From positions 124,001 through 188,000 of the forward strand of contig BLZA01000002.1 in NCBI GenBank assembly GCA_013423385.1: a stretch of DNA of 64,000 nt. The letters are read 5' to 3'. The notes below the pieces were generated by a model, which was not told the origin of the DNA, did not search any database, and saw only the letters and a program-made list of their open reading frames with translations. The stretch comes from Naganishia liquefaciens (Eukaryota > Basidiomycota > Tremellomycetes > Filobasidiales > Filobasidiaceae). Below are positions 551 to 10,632 of the stretch, piece after piece. The translations under genes were made by a program, and so were the position numbers. The number at the start of each line of letters is the position of its first letter. Positions within the stretch are counted from its first letter, which is position 1.

Positions 551-3500
551 ATGGGGCGGACAAGAGGTCTAAAGAGACTGCCACGACCCGTCTCCTTGGC
601 AGAATCGGAATCTCCTCCTCCCGAGCGCCCGGTGAAACCGCATTATCGCACGACAGGCCGCAAAGGCCCACCGGCGCGATACGACGTCCCTTCGAGTGAT
701 TCAGAGGAGAAGAGCGAAGAGGAGGACGGTCCCGATGGTCCTGGAGATGAAGGGGTCATTCGACAAAGTCCAGAACATTCGAATCTGGACGAGGAAAGCG
801 ATTTGGATCACGACGACAGCGAGGATGACAATGATGTTGAGGATGAACAGGACGACGAAGAGCGAGAAGGAATGGTGGCTCTCGAATCAGATATCGACGT
901 TTCCGAAGAATGGTCACCTCGACAGTTGGAACTCATTCAGCTCGCTTCCGACCTATCTGCAAACGACGATCTCCTTTCCTGTATTTTCGTGGACACGTTC
1001 GGCAGCATGTCGCTGAAGGACGACCTGGGGGTTTACTATCACCAAGGTGACTTCGTCAAGCCGTACTTTGATAGGAAGCAAGTGCTTGAGATGGCGCAGC
1101 AGACTATTGTCGAGGGCGACGTCCAGGGCGCTATGGATCGATGCCTTAGACTGCAGATCATTCGAGATCACATCAGCAAATTGAGGTCGAACCAGCAAAT
1201 CAAGAAATTTGTCGCTCATATCAAGAGATATCTGATGCTCTACCATCCTGCATCGCGAGTCGAAATCAGGACGACAGACAGGTATCGATTCGCGACCAAT
1301 AAATCCGAATTGGCGGTATTCTCTACGGTGGACTTGGACCCGGGTCTCACCGAGTACGCGATCATGGACATCCAAAGTCTTCATCAACAGCCAGAACAGC
1401 CTGATTCCGCTGGATCGAATCGAAGCAAATTCAATGCGCCCACCCTGCATGGTCTCCCGAACGCTATCAATGGCGCCATCATGGGTGGAGAGCTTGCACA
1501 TCTCGGCAACAACCTGTCAGCCGAACCGCGACCTCCGATGCTCGTCCTAGACGAGATCACTGGTGCGATGGAAGTTATGCCCAAGATTTGGGAACAGCGA
1601 TTGAGCGGCAACGCGGTTGATGATGAGGATTCGCTCTTGAATCCGGTGTTGGCGGCTCGAAAGGGTAAACAAACGCGCAACGTGCCTTATGGTGATATGG
1701 ACCTCGACGTCAACGGCGGCATCGGCGGACCCAAGAAGACGGCGGAGATTCGGGACTTTAGTATCGTCAATTCGGGAAGGCAAGGACTAATGCTCTTCCT
1801 TGGACCGGGACGTTTCATCAACCACGATTGCTCGCCGAATGTCGAGCTTATCACAACAAAGAGGAACGTCATTACCTTCCGTGTCTTGAGGAGGATTCGG
1901 GTCGGCGAGGAGTTGACGACTTGGTAGTGAGTGGTTTCATCGCTAAATCGGGATTAGAGCTAATTCCCTTACAGCGGCGATAACTACTTCGGCCAAGGGA
2001 ATAGGGACTGTTTGTGCTTGACTTGCGAGCTCAATCAGCGAAGTGGATTCTCTCGCGTTGGTGATGAGGATGCGTCAGACTTCGTCAATGGTGAAAGCAT
2101 CGCGAGGCCATCAGGGTACCCAGGAGCTGTCGCCACGACTGCCCAGAGAAACGGCAGACACGCGCTGGAAGACGACGATCTGCAAGCGGGCATGACAGTG
2201 ATCGTGACAAATCAAGATGGCACAGGCGCTTCAACCGAGACGATCGAGTTCATCGACGCATCTCAGGTCGAACCTGATACCGACGAGGTCATGCCCCTCG
2301 GACGCGTCAGATTAGAGGAAACTTCGCGAGACGCTTCGCGAGACTCTGGTCGTCTTCGCAATCAGGCTCGCTCGAGACAGCCGAGTATGGAAAACGACGG
2401 ACCGTTGTTGGGAGTCCTCCAGAGTCAGGACGCGAGCAAGCGTTATCTGAGACGCAGCGGTTCTTCGTCTGCTATACCGCATCGGATGGCCGATTCCGTA
2501 TCAGTCTCATCTTCAACGCGCGGTTCACCTACACCCTCGTCGAGCGGCATGGGTTCTGCTAGACCCGCTTCGCGAAACTCCAGACGTGCTGCGGTTCAAG
2601 GTAGGGAGCGGACGAGCAATATGATACACAATCCGTTTGGGGCGACTGCGGATAAGAACGGAAAGAGGGTGAAACTCACCTCGGATGGCACGGAGCATCT
2701 CATGGATCCTTCGCATGCGCACCTTGACGATCAGGATCCACCGGGGACAATCAGATGTACTGTCTGTCTGAGCGTCATGGAGCCGGTCTGGATATCAGAT
2801 CGATACATCGAGCAGTGTTCTCGGTAAGCATTCAGCTATCTCAGCGATATCCGTTCTAATGGAGATGACACAGGTGCATTCGCCACAAGGCCATCTATGG
2901 TGTCAAGTGGCCAGCTAGAACCAAAGCTGAAGAGCAACCTTATCCTCCGGTCAATATGCGACCCAGCTGGTGGGTTCCTCAGCGCATCAACAAGTATCAA
3001 TATACAGCAACAGCGACGAGAGAGACAGTCGACCACATGTACAATCACATCTCTCACGCTATGGATCAAGAGATTTCCGAGGCAGAGAGGCTCATATCAG
3101 AACGGCAGGAAGCCGAAAAGGAGGCCAGGCGACTTAACCGATGGGAAACTCTCAACGAGGAAGCGGCGATCAAGTTCCGGAAGGACCTGGAAGCTGCCCA
3201 AAACAAGATGCGCAAAATTGATAAGGAGTATGATATTGCGCGAGAGGCTTCGAAGGTCAAACCGAAGCTGCATTCCGGTGGAGGGAATTGGGGCCGCTAC
3301 GAGTACGTCTGGGAGGAAGAAGATGACGGACATTCAAAGATACAACCTGGTTCGAAGAGGAGTAATCGAGCGACGTCGTTTGCCAATTCTCCTCCGCGAT
3401 TCAGCAAGAGACGTCGTACTAACGAGCAGAACTGCGATAATCAGCTTTCAGTCAGTCGGTATGGGCGCGAGAGGAAGGCCACAGAAAAGAGCGTCGCTTC

Positions 3501-6500
3501 TGGTTCATCCCACCGTCCGCGTATCGAAGCTAAAGAACATCCTGCGAAGAGAAGGAAAGAACGGCCCAGACCCCCGGGCCCAATCTTTAGCGCTATTCCG
3601 CCATCACCGTCAAGGGAGATCATTGCCGAGAACGACTTCGACATCTTGCCCATTCCGGACATATCCGATGCAGTCGATTACACCGCGAAGCGATCGGACA
3701 AGGAGGTCGAGGATATCTACGACTCTGACGTAGAGATCATCGCGTCCCACGTTTCGTGTGCTGTGCAGGAAGGTCGCCTCGAGGAAAAATACGGATCGCA
3801 TGTTAATCCTATCTCAATCGAAGGAGACGAAGAAATCGGCAATGCTACCGCACATAACGGCAACGACATTTCCAATTTGACCCATTTTGACGCGAGCGCA
3901 CCACACTTGATGCCAGTGACGCCCGGCTCGGTCAATGATGGTGGAGTCCTCAAGGAGGCAACCTGTGATCAGGCGGAGGATGCACAATCCTTTCCATGTC
4001 ATCCGCACAACAAGAACAAGACAGGCATCAACCCAACGAAATGCCGTGAGGTTTTTCGTGGAACACTCTCCAGCCCAGACTCTCCTAACTTTAGCACCGG
4101 GTACGTTGTACGGCCGGAAAGTTACCAATTACCTAGAGCTCTTCTGGAAAGAGGCAAGGGAACGAGAGCCGCAATCAAGGCTATGAAACGTGCCCTGTCC
4201 GGAAAGACCCTGACACCTGCTGACGAACGGCGAAAGGCAAATCCCTTGCTGCATAGCGCCGAAGCGGAAATCGCTCGAGCTCGACAGGTCGCCGCCTTTC
4301 TGGGAAGTGCCAAACGACACTCGCCTCTCAGGTCGGCATTGAGTTATCAGCACGTTCACTTTGCAAAGCCTTCTCCATTCGTGAGCCCGTTGCAAACGCC
4401 CGAGCAACAAGGTAAAGGTCAGGAATCGGGAGACGGTTTGAAGTCTACGCCAGGCATCAACCTCACTGGCCTTGTGAGAGATATCGAAGTTACAGTGCCG
4501 GCTGATAATCTAGCTGCTCAATCCGGGTCTCAGCCGACTCTGGGAGGGGCTCTGCGATCTGGCTCTGAACCGATGTCGGACAGCGTCGAAGATACTACGA
4601 GTGATCCAGCCGCAATAGAAGGGGAAAAAGAGCAAGAGAATCGGGTCAGTGCTGTATACCTTAATGTGAGATCGCGACTGATGGTGATCACGGACTCCTT
4701 GCCATCAAGCAGTCCACCCTCGCAGCCGAAGCGGACTCAAGCAAGGGAACGAAGATCCCACCATTGGTGCCCCAGTTTCCGGGCCCTGCTGTTTATGCCT
4801 TGAACCGGCAGCTTACAAGCATGTTCCCTCCGGTGGATCAACTCGAGACGGCTGTAGCGGTGAACCTATCGACGAATACGCCGGAGACCCAAGTCCCATC
4901 TTCAGTTGCACCATCAACGCCAGCTGCCATCGAGGAAGATGCCATAGAGGAAGATGACATTGGAGGGTGTTGTCCCCCGGATGCTCTTTCGCCAACGCAC
5001 GCTGAGGGACCGCTGCAATCTATCAATTCCGCCGATTCAGCTGCGATCGCTCGCAAAAGACAAGTAGAATCCGAGGAGATAAGGATTTCGGAGACTTCAG
5101 GACACGAAGAGGCGTCGATATATGAGAAGCCAACTCCGACGGTGGCGTCGATTGCAAGTCAAGTTGTTCTTTCCATAGACCCGGTCTGGAAACCTGCAGG
5201 ACTGACGGATCCGATAAAAGGGTCTACAGAGCATCAAAACGTCGCTCCGGGATCCCGTCCTCCACCCTACCAAGATGCTAGGGATATCGAAAGAGGAGAG
5301 CTGCTCAAGAGCGTACCTCAAGAGAACCGATCTTCAGATCTCGTGAAAGCGGCCATTGTGACAGTAGCGGACGCCGCTGGCCCAGTGCTAGCAGTCGCAA
5401 ACGGACTGGACGACAGTCTACTAGTGTCGGGTGTCGCGGAATCACAAACGACGGATTCGCTTAGAGGCATAGAACAAGTGGAATCGCCCGCTCACCGAAA
5501 CATCGATGCTCTGTCTATCAGCGATGTCGCCGCGACGTGTCATGTACAGCTTGAGCCACCTCCGTCGCAGGCGAAGACGGCCGATCTGGAGGCATCTCGA
5601 AGCACTGTTCTTTCAGAATCGACCCGAATCGACGTCGACCATCAGGGAATGGCGAACGATGACTCAAGGAGTCTTCTTGCTAAAATGCGCGTCAAGTCTG
5701 TGTCTGAACAGCCGGTCGTGGAGGAGTCCGCCGGAGAAGAATCAACGACGGCGGCGCAGAGCCTCGAGTGGGCCTTACTCCCAGAGTCAGAGCGTTCGGC
5801 TGAAGTCTTCTTTACCGTGCAAAATGCTACGCAGAACGTAGACGTCTCTATGGAATATTCCGAGCCTCCCACGTTATTCAGTGTGCCGGATCAAGGTGAA
5901 GCGCAATCAGCTGTGCCACCGATGCTCCCTGAGGAACATGTCCTTTGCAGCCATTCGAGCTCGTCGTCGGACGATGCCACGAGTTCGAGAATAGCCTCAG
6001 GGACCGATATCATTAGTGCGGCGGAGCCTGCGGTCACGGCGCCAGTTGCGGACATTTCGCCGCTCACGTCACCTATGAAGTTTCAAGCGAACGAAGGTAT
6101 AAGTTCGTGTAGAGAATCCCAAACCTTGTTCGCGCTGACGGTCCTCATACTTTGACAGCAGTCACAACGTTGGACTTGCCAATTCCATCTCCGCCTGGCG
6201 AAAGGGAATTCTTAAATGTAGAGACAGGCACTGAAAGCGCTGTCCAGGAGATATCTGCCGCATCTGGAGAACCGAGGGCGAAGAGTCCAACTTCCTCTTT
6301 GAAGGAAGCCATGGCTCCGCTCAGATCCCAGGAGTCGATCCCCGTAGCCGTCTCTTCCGAAAACGATAATGTGGAAGAATCGCCCCGCTCATATACCGTG
6401 ATACCGGTAGGTGGACATCTGCACGAAGCTGGAATAGTTCCCACATCTCTACATCCGGAGAAAGCCGAGGCTGTGCAGAATCTACCTTCGAACAGTACCC

Positions 6501-9500
6501 TCGTCTCGCAGCAGACTGGAGGACAGGCACCGGAGAAAGCGGAACCCATTGTTCCTTTGGAATTCAGCGCGCTTGAGAGGAGTGACTCTGAGGCCGAAGC
6601 AGTACCCGCGTCTGCCATACCTGCGGACTTCGGTGGCGGAGAGATTGACGCGACCGCCGCAACCCTCACTGACAAATCCCAATCGCTGGCTGATGCGCCG
6701 ACATCAGCTCAGAACGAAGTCAGGATGTCCAGCAATGAGGACAGCGCTGCTGATTCACAGTCCGTCTTGCTGGGGACTGTGCCAGTGCAATCGACGGCGG
6801 AAGTGGTATCTGAAGAACGGACTTCATTGAGCGAACCTGCTGAGCCCGATGACCCGGAAGAGCCGATGTCCACCATAGAAGCTAGTGCAATAAATCAGCC
6901 TGACGGCGTAAGTTCTCGATGAGTTTACGCCGCATCCACTCTTACACCTTTTTGCAGTATATGTCGCGTTCTGCAAGTCCTTTCGAGTTCGCACCTCCGA
7001 TGTCTCCTGCCTGCGAAAAAACGATGTCCCCCGTTTGGAGATCCCCAGAGATCCCTTCGGGCGCTGTGAGTCCCTCCGGTTCTCCACTTGCATGCCGCGC
7101 CTGATTGTACGCCAAAGGTCAATCAGCCACTCGCCACTCCCTCGTCCTCAGTCGCCACGCCAAGCAGCGTACCACAGAAAAGGAAAAGGACAGGTCTCTC
7201 AACGCCAATACCAGAGGACGCGGAAGTTGTTGTCCTGTCCAGCGAAGATGAAGTTGAAATCGTCAGGCCGCTTAAGCGAGTCGCGAACGCTCAGATATTC
7301 CAGCAAAACCATGTACTACCCGGTCACAATGATCGGTTCGGACACGATGCTGCTCCCTTTGCCTCACCGAGGCTAGCCAGGAACTCGCAACTCCAAGCAT
7401 CTCCGGCATCCCGTACTCAAACCACACCTGCTAGAAACCCGGTTCCAGAGTCGCCGGCCGCTCCATCTCTCGACCGACGAGGTGTCCGAAAAAGCGAGAA
7501 GGGAGCGTTGTTCCTGAAGTCTACGAAGAAGCAATTAGAATCTCGCAGAACGATACAGGCACTTAGGCGCATTCAGCTGGTATCCGCTGGAATCACAGAT
7601 TTCCGCGATGGTGATGATGGACCTAGAACAGAAGCGAGTGCAGAAGTATCATCGGTCGCTGGCGTTGAGACGGCTTGGGGAGGAGTGACAGCAACCGCTG
7701 AAGTATCGTCTACCAATTGGGATGTGCCTGCGCCCGGGTTATCTGCTGTGACAACGGGCTGGGGCGGTGCATCGTCCGGATATCAAGTCATGAGAGGGCC
7801 TTCAGCACCAAACAACAACGGGTGGGGAGACAATGTGCCTGTCACGCCAAGCGCGAATACCGGATGGGATGACGAGTCGGCTTGGACTGATCGGCCTTCT
7901 GCCTCTGTCGAACCTGGACGGAGAGCCGAAACAAACGATATTGTTTTGCCTTCCGCCTCGACAGCCAGCACTGGCTGGTGCGACGAGCCACCTGCCTTGC
8001 GTCCGACCTCATCTACAGCTTTTCGCGAAACCAGCCGCAAAGTTGCGCATTCGGCCACGGAGGTGAATACAGATTGGGGTACAAACCAATCCGGGAGCAC
8101 AGCTGAGGCATCCTCATCGACGGCCTGGGATCCGCCAGCGGCTGCTACGCCGACAGCTCCACAGGCTGATGCCGCTTGGGGAGACAACTCGACTGCTTCG
8201 GCTGCGAACAAGGACGATACTCCGATCACAGCTGATGTTTCTCTGGCCTGGAACGTAGGCTCGGAACATGCTACGGCTTCCACTGTTGATCCCAGTGGTG
8301 GCTGGGGAGATGTGCCGTCGACGTCGACGGCCAATAATGGTTGGGATACGGCGCCTGCTGTATTCGATGTCGGGCGCAACTCTTGGGTTGAGTCGTCCAA
8401 TACAGCGAACCACTCAAGTTGGAGCTACACTGCCGATCTATCGCATCTCCGTAACACACCATCTACGTCTAGCTTCTCCAAGCAGAATTCTGCAGATGGC
8501 TGGGGAAGTGCGTCCCGTAGCAGCTGGGGCAGCGCGCCTGCAATGCGAACCAGCCATGCGGTTTCAAATTTGGATTCTGCGTGCCCCCGTGAACCTATGG
8601 CTCAGCGCATGAAAGATGGCTGGCCTGCTGCAACGCACAACTCTTCTTCCACTCGTACACAAGTGGGCGAGGGCGAGTCGAGCCATTCGTCTCGCCACGA
8701 CGCGAGGGATTGGCGATCAGGTCACGGCGACCGCGAACAGAGGCAAGTTGGCTATATTCAATCATAGAGCCTACGGCTAATACGATACTCTCACAGCGAG
8801 AGACAGTGTGGAGACAAAGAAGTTACGGAAAAGAATAAACCAGAGGAATTCCGCGAATCAGAATCTGGCAACAGTTGCAAAGAACTCGCCGTTGATCCCA
8901 ACGCTTGGGAACCAGAACCTACCGCTGCTGCCACCGCTACTGATTGGGGCTCGTGGGAAGCGCCAGTATCGAGCGGGATTCCGAGCGGCTGGGGCGTCCC
9001 AGGAACAGATGTACGTAGCGAACTGGACGCCAGACCTCAGGCGTTGTCTTCTCGATCTCGATTTCCCTCGCCTTCGAGCAGACCAAATTCTCGCCACAGC
9101 GGTGCGATATGCTGGGAATCTCCTCCGTCTCACCAACAGCCTTCAAGGGAAAGGGAAGCAAGTGACGTGCGGAAGCCAAAGACTGCCGAAGCCGCCCGAC
9201 CCAGACGATCGGTCGCAGAAGATTTTTGGAATGACGATTCGCCACCCGAACCAGCGCTGATGGAACCAGCAATCGGATCAGTCGAACAAGCAGCATCAGG
9301 ATGGGGCGATGCTTGGACTCCCAGCGATCCTGCCACAATTTTCAAGGATGATGGGTGGGGCAATCCCTTGAACCTTTCGTCCAACGCCTCTACGGGTATG
9401 GGCTGGTCCCAACCGACTCGCGGGCGACCTCACTCACGCAGCCACGGCCGCGACTCTCATCGAGGGCCAGCTTCGACTCATTCCCGACAGGGAAGCGAAA

Positions 9501-10632
9501 CACGGAGAAGCTCTAGAGATCGTCGGCGCGATCAACAGTCACCAGCACCGCGACACTCCGAGAATCGTCATCAATCTGAGCATTCTTTTAGAGCCAGATC
9601 CCCCGACCGAAGGGACTTGACAACCGCCGACAGAGCACAATCTCGAGAGCACCAAAGAGAGCGGGATAGGCCTTCCACGCGTGATGACCGCCAAGACAGG
9701 GATCTTCGCGATCGCGATCACCATGACCGACACGCGTCGCGGCGAGAGCCTCATCGCAGAGACCATGACACTCGATCTCCCCATCGCGAACGCAGGTCTG
9801 ACCGGGAAACCGACGGGAAGGCGTCGCGTAATCGAGAGTCGGATCATCGAGATCGCGACCGGGAACGAGATGGCGGCGGACGTCGGTCCACCGAGCACGT
9901 CCATGAGCGTTCAGAATCATCCGGACCAAGGCATAGGTCTGCGCACCGGGAAGATGATGAACGTGATTCCAAAGAAACCTTTAAACGACGCCATCGCGAT
10001 CGAGACGACCGAGAGAGGCGACCTCGAGGGGATTCGATCGACAAGCCTCGCCGTTCGGATGCCCGATCCGATCCAAGAGAACAGGATGGACGTACTAGAG
10101 AAACGAGGGAAGTAGACAAAGACTCGCGTAGGGATTTCGAAAACAGAGTTCCAACGCAAAGACCTGCCGATCGAGTACATCCCGACCGATTGCGCACTCG
10201 AGACGAGTTTGCGGAACCAGGTAAGCAGCATGCCGTCTCTGAAACAAACGATCTAATGTCTTTTGCTAAGATGATCCGGCTCCTGTAACCGAGCAACCTC
10301 TCCCCTCGATGACAACGTCCAACGATATACCGCTGGGCTCAAAAAGAGTATTTGGACGACCAGCTGTTACAGAGCCGAGCGACGTGCGATCGACCAGTCT
10401 CAGTGTCGCTTCTACGCTTGCAAAGCGCAACGAGCCCACCGGCGATGAGGCAGACAGTACGAGTGAACCTGGCGAGAGCTACGATAAACAGGCTGCCCAC
10501 GCTACAAGGAAAAACAGGGAAATCGGATGGGGGGAAGCGACCGCTACTGCGGAAGAAGCGAAAGAAATCTCATGGGGTGCATGGAAGCCGTCGACCAGTT
10601 CAGCCCTTCCTTTCGTCAGTGCTGGTTGGTGA
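551..10632 (+). CDS. set9: Giant Set9/Kmt5-type SET-domain protein with C-terminal GW/WG array
   Basis: Nine exons (551-1926, 1975-2823, 2874-4644, 4713-6096, 6159-6907, 6958-7065, 7118-8742, 8797-10220, 10271-10632) join in frame to a predicted 3215 residues. The seventh intron begins GCAAGT (GC-AG type). Residues about 140-475 are the H4K20 methyltransferase Set9/Kmt5 SET region: the cofactor-binding motif GRFINHDCSPN lies near 420-430, YGDNYFG near 459-465, followed by the post-SET CLCLTC. A second C-x2-C pair (CTVC near 719, CSRC near 741) followed by H and WP matches the fungal Set9 tail. An acidic D/E-rich stretch (residues 55-115) precedes the SET region. The next ~1500 residues are low-complexity. 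From about residue 2264 the protein carries about 20 tryptophans next to glycine, an Arg/Asp/Ser-rich block, and ends in GW before the stop. Fungal Set9 proteins known to me are several-fold shorter. The enzyme call is strong. The single-transcript call rests on eight phase-consistent introns. Argonaute binding is inference. Confidence 0.82.
7672..10632 (+). repeat. GW/WG tryptophan repeat region (candidate Argonaute hook) within the Set9-GW protein
   Basis: Translated in the gene frame, I count about 33 tryptophans here, 20 of them flanked by glycine: AWGG, TGWGG, NGWGD, TGWDD, TGWCD, DWGT, AWGD, GGWGD, NGWDT, DGWGS, SWGS, DGWPA, DWGSW, SGWGV, SGWGD, DGWGN, MGWSQ, IGWGE, SWGAW and a terminal AGW. 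Linkers are Ser/Thr/Ala/Asp/Asn-rich and of irregular length. That is the usual signature of intrinsically disordered Argonaute-binding platforms (GW182, Tas3, plant Pol V/SPT5L families). The repeats are not DNA tandem copies, so spacing and composition rather than sequence are conserved. Confidence 0.75.
9420..10216 (+). repeat. Arg/Asp/Glu/Ser-rich low-complexity block inside the Set9-GW protein
   Basis: About 265 residues (roughly 2828-3093) dominated by RD, RE, RS and HR dipeptides, resembling RS/RD domains of RNA-processing factors. It sits between the main GW array and the last two GW motifs. The shadow frames here are also open, as expected for purine-rich arginine repeats. A role in RNA binding or condensate formation is inference. 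Confidence 0.7.

Follow-up and report, generated by a model that had tools for sequence, protein, structure and literature searches.

To our knowledge, RNA interference (RNAi) reaches histone methyltransferases via adaptor complexes in the known cases. In the RITS complex of fission yeast, Tas3 provides a glycine-tryptophan (GW)-type link between Argonaute and chromatin; it has no catalytic domain and leads to methylation of lysine 9 of histone H3 (H3K9). Here, a 64,000-nucleotide (nt) stretch of the Naganishia liquefaciens genome (contig BLZA01000002.1, positions 124,001 to 188,000; the window, whose own numbering is used below) was analyzed, and a locus at 551 to 10632 on the forward strand was found to have the features of a gene for Set9, a methyltransferase of lysine 20 of histone H4 (H4K20), extended by a GW-rich C-terminal tail. 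The most likely reading of the predicted product is a lineage-specific Set9 that bears an Argonaute (AGO) hook; this protein would share the GW link with Tas3 and differ from it in carrying a catalytic domain and in its route, which in Tas3 runs to H3K9.

The nearest known single-polypeptide case is plant NERD, which has a PHD finger and GW repeats and binds histone H3 and AGO2 (PMC7544125). As in the long Set9, a histone-directed module and Argonaute motifs lie on one polypeptide, but NERD is a plant protein that binds H3, and no methyltransferase role is described for it in the excerpts of PMC7544125. The plant proteins NRPE1, SPT5L, and SPT6L carry AGO-hook tails (PMC10991848, PMC7544125), and SPT6L is an old chromatin protein that gained its hook in one lineage (PMC10991848). 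These also resemble the long Set9 in having a long, disordered, and variable GW/WG array on a chromatin-associated protein, with the tail found in one lineage and not in relatives; they differ in being part of the transcription machinery and in writing no histone mark. Closer in phylogeny, Gwc1 and Gwo1 of Cryptococcus are GW/WG or GW182-like RNAi proteins (PMC4778953, PMC6643885), but the excerpts of these two papers mention no SET domain, and the three tail matches described below include no named Cryptococcus protein. A literature search covering titles and abstract openings among the matches listed, with subscription papers mostly outside it, returned no paper on a SET-GW fusion. A long SET-GW protein is already deposited, as the hypothetical protein QFC21_007205 of Naganishia friedmannii (3067 amino acids [aa]; here P0001).

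Joining nine exons across eight introns gave a single open frame of 3219 aa in which the only stop codon was the terminal one, and thus the first-pass annotation had correctly described these joins as free of frame conflict. From 192 splice-site combinations, 32 were open through to the same stop and gave products of 3209 to 3223 aa. The introns were 47 to 62 nt long, and all were GT-AG with the exception of 8743 to 8796, which was GC-AG (7/8 GT-AG). Using 400 first-order Markov simulations, chance openness was 0/400 for seven of the nine exons, including both large linker exons, while the short exons at 6958 to 7065 and 10271 to 10629 were open in 110 and 4 simulations, respectively. Per exon, the other five frames contained 2 to 37 stops in seven exons and 1 to 6 in exon 9; the 108-base exon 6 had zero stops in every frame. 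Codon-usage scoring did not separate the frames in this genome and was not counted as coding support. The features of the locus are given below, where P0055 to P0057 are contig open reading frames (ORFs) carrying the tail and tryptophans (W) are numbered by residue.

551 to 1926, + strand: exon 1, encoding an acidic N-terminus, the conserved Set9 N-terminal block (~911 to 1336), a less conserved insert, and most of the SET domain (~1538 to 1926)
1975 to 2823, + strand: exon 2, encoding the end of the SET domain (YGDNYFG), the post-SET cysteines (2009 to 2026), and the start of a four-cysteine block
2756 to 2877, + strand: four-cysteine block CTVC...CSRC, zinc-site-like, interrupted by intron 2 (2824 to 2873), with a counterpart in the Tremellomycete Set9 proteins compared in full
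2874 to 4665, + strand: exon 3, the remaining Set9 part, with similarity to P0001 up to approximately residue 1250 (4398)
4666 to 4712, + strand: intron 3 (GTGAGA...CAG, 47 nt), on whose splicing the fusion depends
4713 to 6096, + strand: exon 4, linker, open (0/400 simulated), in which no similarity to the linker of P0001 was detected
6159 to 6907, + strand: exon 5, continuation of the linker, open (0/400 simulated)
6958 to 7065, + strand: exon 6, a short linker exon, weak when taken alone (110/400 simulations open)
7127 to 8742, + strand: exon 7, in which the conserved tail begins, with the first part of the GW array
7223 to 7264, + strand: conserved SUMO-interacting-like motif EVVVLSSEDEVEIV, with counterparts in P0001 and P0055 to P0057
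7496 to 7615, + strand: conserved 40-aa block EKGALFL...SRRTIQALRRIQLVSAGITDFRDGD
7676 to 8742, + strand: first part of the GW array, W2270 to W2615
8743 to 8796, + strand: intron 7, GC-AG, donor AG/GCAAGT
8797 to 10220, + strand: exon 8, with the second part of the GW array (W2662 to W2828, ~8906 to 9406) followed by a stretch rich in arginine-aspartate (RD) and arginine-serine (RS) (~9416 to 10205)
10271 to 10632, + strand: exon 9, with the final four tryptophans (10528 to 10629), the C-terminus ...SAGW, and the stop codon (10630 to 10632)

By similarity, the N-terminal part belongs to the Set9/KMT5 family of SET proteins. Exon 1 matched Pfam SET with 37.6 bits (cut-off, 22.4), and the best PDB match was SUV420H2 (E value, 1.1e−11), with SUV420H1/KMT5B also matched and SUV420H1/H2/KMT5B making up the top 10 of 15 matches. 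In a 14-sequence alignment with fungal Set9, the N-terminal block and the region of the NHDC motif contained invariant or near-invariant columns. These three comparisons bear out the Set9 identity given to the SET domain at first pass. Set9 is single copy in the 19.4-Mb genome, where the next matches had E values of 0.06 or worse. According to a review, fungi have just one KMT5, Set9, which makes H4K20me1/2/3 (PMC9224773). For the protein described here, both the name Set9 and the predicted H4K20 specificity follow from family assignment, and H4K20 methyltransferase activity would be expected of it.

From residue 2087 the tail comprises, in order, the SUMO-interacting-like motif (so labeled by its pattern), the 40-aa block, the GW array, the RD/RS-rich stretch, and four last tryptophans before the end ...SAGW. 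Thirty-three tryptophans lie between residue 2270 and the C-terminus. The main array (residues 2257 to 2814; 558 aa) holds 28 of them (5.0%; the binomial test applied to the array assumed a background of 1.3% W) and 23 GW/WG motifs, whereas 2000 shuffles gave 4.4 on average and never more than 13. Ordinary composition was therefore ruled out as its source, and the earlier description of a C-terminus full of glycine-flanked tryptophans, similar to an Argonaute hook, held up. The flanks of the array tryptophans were small or polar in 85% of cases. For an AGO hook, PMC10991848 required at least three motifs with a matrix score of at least 6; the array holds 23 GW/WG motifs, counted irrespective of matrix score. 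Hook tryptophans are also expected to lie approximately ten or more residues apart (PMC9262622), and the array conforms to such spacing, with a median gap of 17 and 24 of 27 gaps of at least 8 residues.

The acidic SUMO-interacting-like motif and the basic 40-aa block could be aligned across the five tail sequences with no large gaps, in contrast to much of the GW array, and the 40-aa block may serve in partner binding. At an E value of 0.1, Pfam identified no family in the tail exons or in P0055 to P0057, and the 40-aa block was likewise without a match. The rest of the genome held no second locus resembling the tail (one candidate was seen at first look). A search of the genomic DNA for paired GW codons gave zero matches, missing even this tail, and is therefore uninformative on rarity.

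Searches for relatives identified the same arrangement once. The full-length search, scored on residues 121 to 480 against proteins of 1770 to 5633 aa (1651 candidates; E value of ≤0.001), returned one match, P0001, which shared 68% identity over the scored SET part and was collinear to its last residue, ending ...AGW. In similarity, three Set9 blocks reached z scores of 264, 68, and 67, and three blocks of the tail reached 31, 19, and 13. The layout, whose recurrence in relatives was proposed as a test in the first-pass annotation, was thus found in one relative, from the SET domain to the final AGW. P0001 has the Set9 part, a linker of similar length, the SUMO-interacting-like motif, the 40-aa block, and the GW array, but its linker is unalignable and its RD region reads otherwise (z, 0.8; no similarity to the RD stretch). 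A simple frameshift of the P0001 RD region was unsupported when compared with the three frames of exon 8 (z, 1.1, −0.1, and −0.7); this region is perhaps a misplaced exon in the P0001 gene model. Residues 1961 to 3219 include 34 tryptophans (W2077 precedes the tail), of which 24 align with a tryptophan in P0001 and 17 fall in columns with tryptophan in every sequence present, counts to be read knowing that the alignment favors W matches and that one of the 17, W3201, lies where the ORF of P0056 has probably run past its exon.

A profile of the tail (7996 candidates scored, of limited lengths) found three proteins, P0055 to P0057, with the same motifs and 19 to 32 tryptophans in the array; P0055 spans just the first half of the tail. 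Identity of the tail with a known Cryptococcus RNAi protein was unsupported, as none of these three matches within that candidate set is a named Cryptococcus protein. The tail is thus conserved within a lineage close to Naganishia.

When proteins of ~490 to 1560 aa were searched with a profile of the N-terminal ~900 aa (7999 candidates scored; E value of ≤1e−10), 53 proteins of 507 to 1447 aa were identified; lengths of 1560 to 1770 aa lie outside the ranges of both this and the full-length search. The claim that fungal Set9 proteins are far shorter agrees with all 53, a set bounded by that length range; the range of 1770 to 5633 aa yielded one long deposited protein, P0001. Among the matches were 14 Tremellomycete Set9 proteins (P0002 to P0015; 1033 to 1447 aa) from Kwoniella, Naematelia, Papiliotrema, Saitozyma, and Tremella. 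They share the SET domain and the conserved block at the N-terminus, as seen on aligning 10 of the 14, and the four-cysteine block is common to the three compared in full, but within the length range searched all 14 lack a GW tail and have at most one glycine-flanked tryptophan each. The basidiomycete Cristinia sonorae protein P0017 (1106 aa) has two such tryptophans and no array. No Cryptococcus Set9 was among the 53 matches, but with 7999 candidates scored at an E value of 1e−10 this is no sign of absence.

The genome also carries an RNAi gene set comprising two Argonaute PIWI genes, an RNA-dependent RNA polymerase in two pieces, and, side by side on contig 6, a pair of RNase III domains that appears Dicer-like. 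Two more RNase III matches were located at G000:C20:447234-447626 and C17:20880-21254, one of them with internal stops that are perhaps introns. Cryptococcus RNAi uses a non-Dicer RNase III (PMC6643885). The tryptophan-pocket residues of the Argonautes were read by eye in human AGO2 numbering, with one protein (L003) aligned to AGO2 and the other (L002) to AGO3 and AGO1; residues other than C691 and P700 are taken to be pocket residues. Equivalents of C691, Y698, and P700 are kept in both proteins. C691 and P700 have been assigned to pocket 3 (PMC9262622), which is distinctly conserved in fungi (PMC12477606). Since the pocket 3 residues are kept, the tail could bind via at least one pocket, and such binding would be multivalent by motif number. 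On balance, binding of Argonaute by the tail is slightly favored.

The best explanation, to which we give even weight, is a very long Set9 H4K20 methyltransferase whose ~1100-aa C-terminal Argonaute hook couples it to small RNAs; the sequence itself shows to which family the SET domain belongs, that the joined exons form an open frame, that the motif array is present and recurs in relatives, and that the genome has RNAi genes. Hook tryptophans would enter the PIWI-domain pockets of small-RNA-loaded Argonaute, and one hook could keep several Argonautes close to the enzyme. Where the small RNAs match nascent transcripts, the methyltransferase would then be placed next to nucleosomes for marking; in the alternative direction, Set9-bound chromatin would collect Argonaute. 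An RNAi-to-H4K20 bridge is plausible, and the narrower proposal that the tail couples small RNAs to H4K20 methylation is held tentatively, a little below an even chance. Several observations weigh against it. Both Argonautes have leucine in place of K660 and threonine in place of F587 and V591, and thus the animal-type tryptophan pockets are partly lost. In fungal Argonautes the GW sites are variable, and the full interface is not generally kept (PMC12477606). Tryptophan-rich disordered tails may have other partners, such as CCR4-NOT for GW182 (PMC10991848), and endo-siRNA (small interfering RNA) production in Cryptococcus is independent of H3K9 methylation (PMC6643885), so a link between RNAi and chromatin cannot be assumed in these fungi. 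The variable pockets, their partial retention here, the RD/RS-rich stretch that follows the array, and the 14 Tremellomycete Set9 matches that manage without a tail would all suit a real fusion whose tail acts outside RNAi, as a W/G- and RD-rich disordered stretch that scaffolds RNA-processing factors or condensates, with Set9 working as in other fungi. However, the spacing, the glycine, alanine, or serine flanks, and the repeat turnover are consistent with Argonaute hooks, and the genome has RNAi genes; we regard a role outside RNAi as a serious but less probable alternative.

Whether there is one gene or two turns on intron 3, the splicing of which is predicted from its consensus. Intron 3 combines a GTRAG donor with an acceptor in frame, and 41 of 600 simulations offered such an intron as well; with any GT donor allowed, 485 of 600 offered a bridging intron. 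Intron 3 has its branch-point-like site at −34, compared with −14 to −25 in six other introns (the intron at 6908 to 6957 has none). Across the ~800-aa linker (residues 1300 to 2085), comparison with P0001 gave z scores of −0.2 and −1.2, that is, no detectable similarity, which is the pattern expected of a mis-joined gene pair. P0055 to P0057 give no view of a SET domain upstream, and two lichen-derived Set9 entries, P0028 and P0031, combine SET with unrelated domains, so predictors can join neighboring genes, and P0001 is also a hypothetical-gene database entry. All of this counts against the fusion and would fit two adjacent genes, a ~1384-aa Set9 ending at 4803, of the size of the Tremellomycete matches, and a separate GW/RD protein, mis-joined by prediction in both species. 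But the linker exons are open over 461 and 249 codons (0/400 each), and therefore any second gene would need to begin ~17 bases past the Set9 stop (4803; next ATG at 4821), scant room for a terminator and a promoter, and in P0001, too, the two parts are joined. Two genes are thus considered improbable. A single fused gene is strongly favored, only a shade less so than before the Set9 proteins joined to other domains (P0028 and P0031) were weighed. If intron 3 were retained, the frame would stop at 4801 to 4803 and give a 1384-aa Set9-only protein of ordinary Set9 length, so that both products could be made and splicing would decide on the hook. The codons past 4665 may, however, be open by chance, and retention, itself predicted from sequence, may trigger decay; this outcome is judged about as improbable as two genes. 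The broader proposal of a sole H4K20 methyltransferase fused to a multivalent Argonaute platform, with intron 3 retention switching between RNA-guided and general Set9, is doubtful, although less so than those two.

Other chromatin-related matches were found elsewhere in the genome. A single Pre-SET match (G000:C6:463361-463525; 27.5 bits against a cut-off of 29.1) lies in an 875-aa frame, possibly a candidate H3K9 methyltransferase. Four of the 11 chromodomain matches lie within ~7 kb of a contig start (C2:6885, C5:6222, C6:5271, and C9:4809) in open frames of 537 to 1753 aa and resemble chromodomain retroelements located close to chromosome ends. No control gave a match in the chromo-shadow search, and its outcome is uninformative.

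If the long Set9 does carry an Argonaute hook, a histone-mark writer and an Argonaute platform would share one polypeptide and form a one-protein bridge, and small RNAs would be tied to H4K20 rather than H3K9 methylation. As far as we know, a small-RNA link to a mark other than H3K9 methylation would be new for these fungi. It would also offer a compact yeast system for studying how small RNAs direct chromatin marks.

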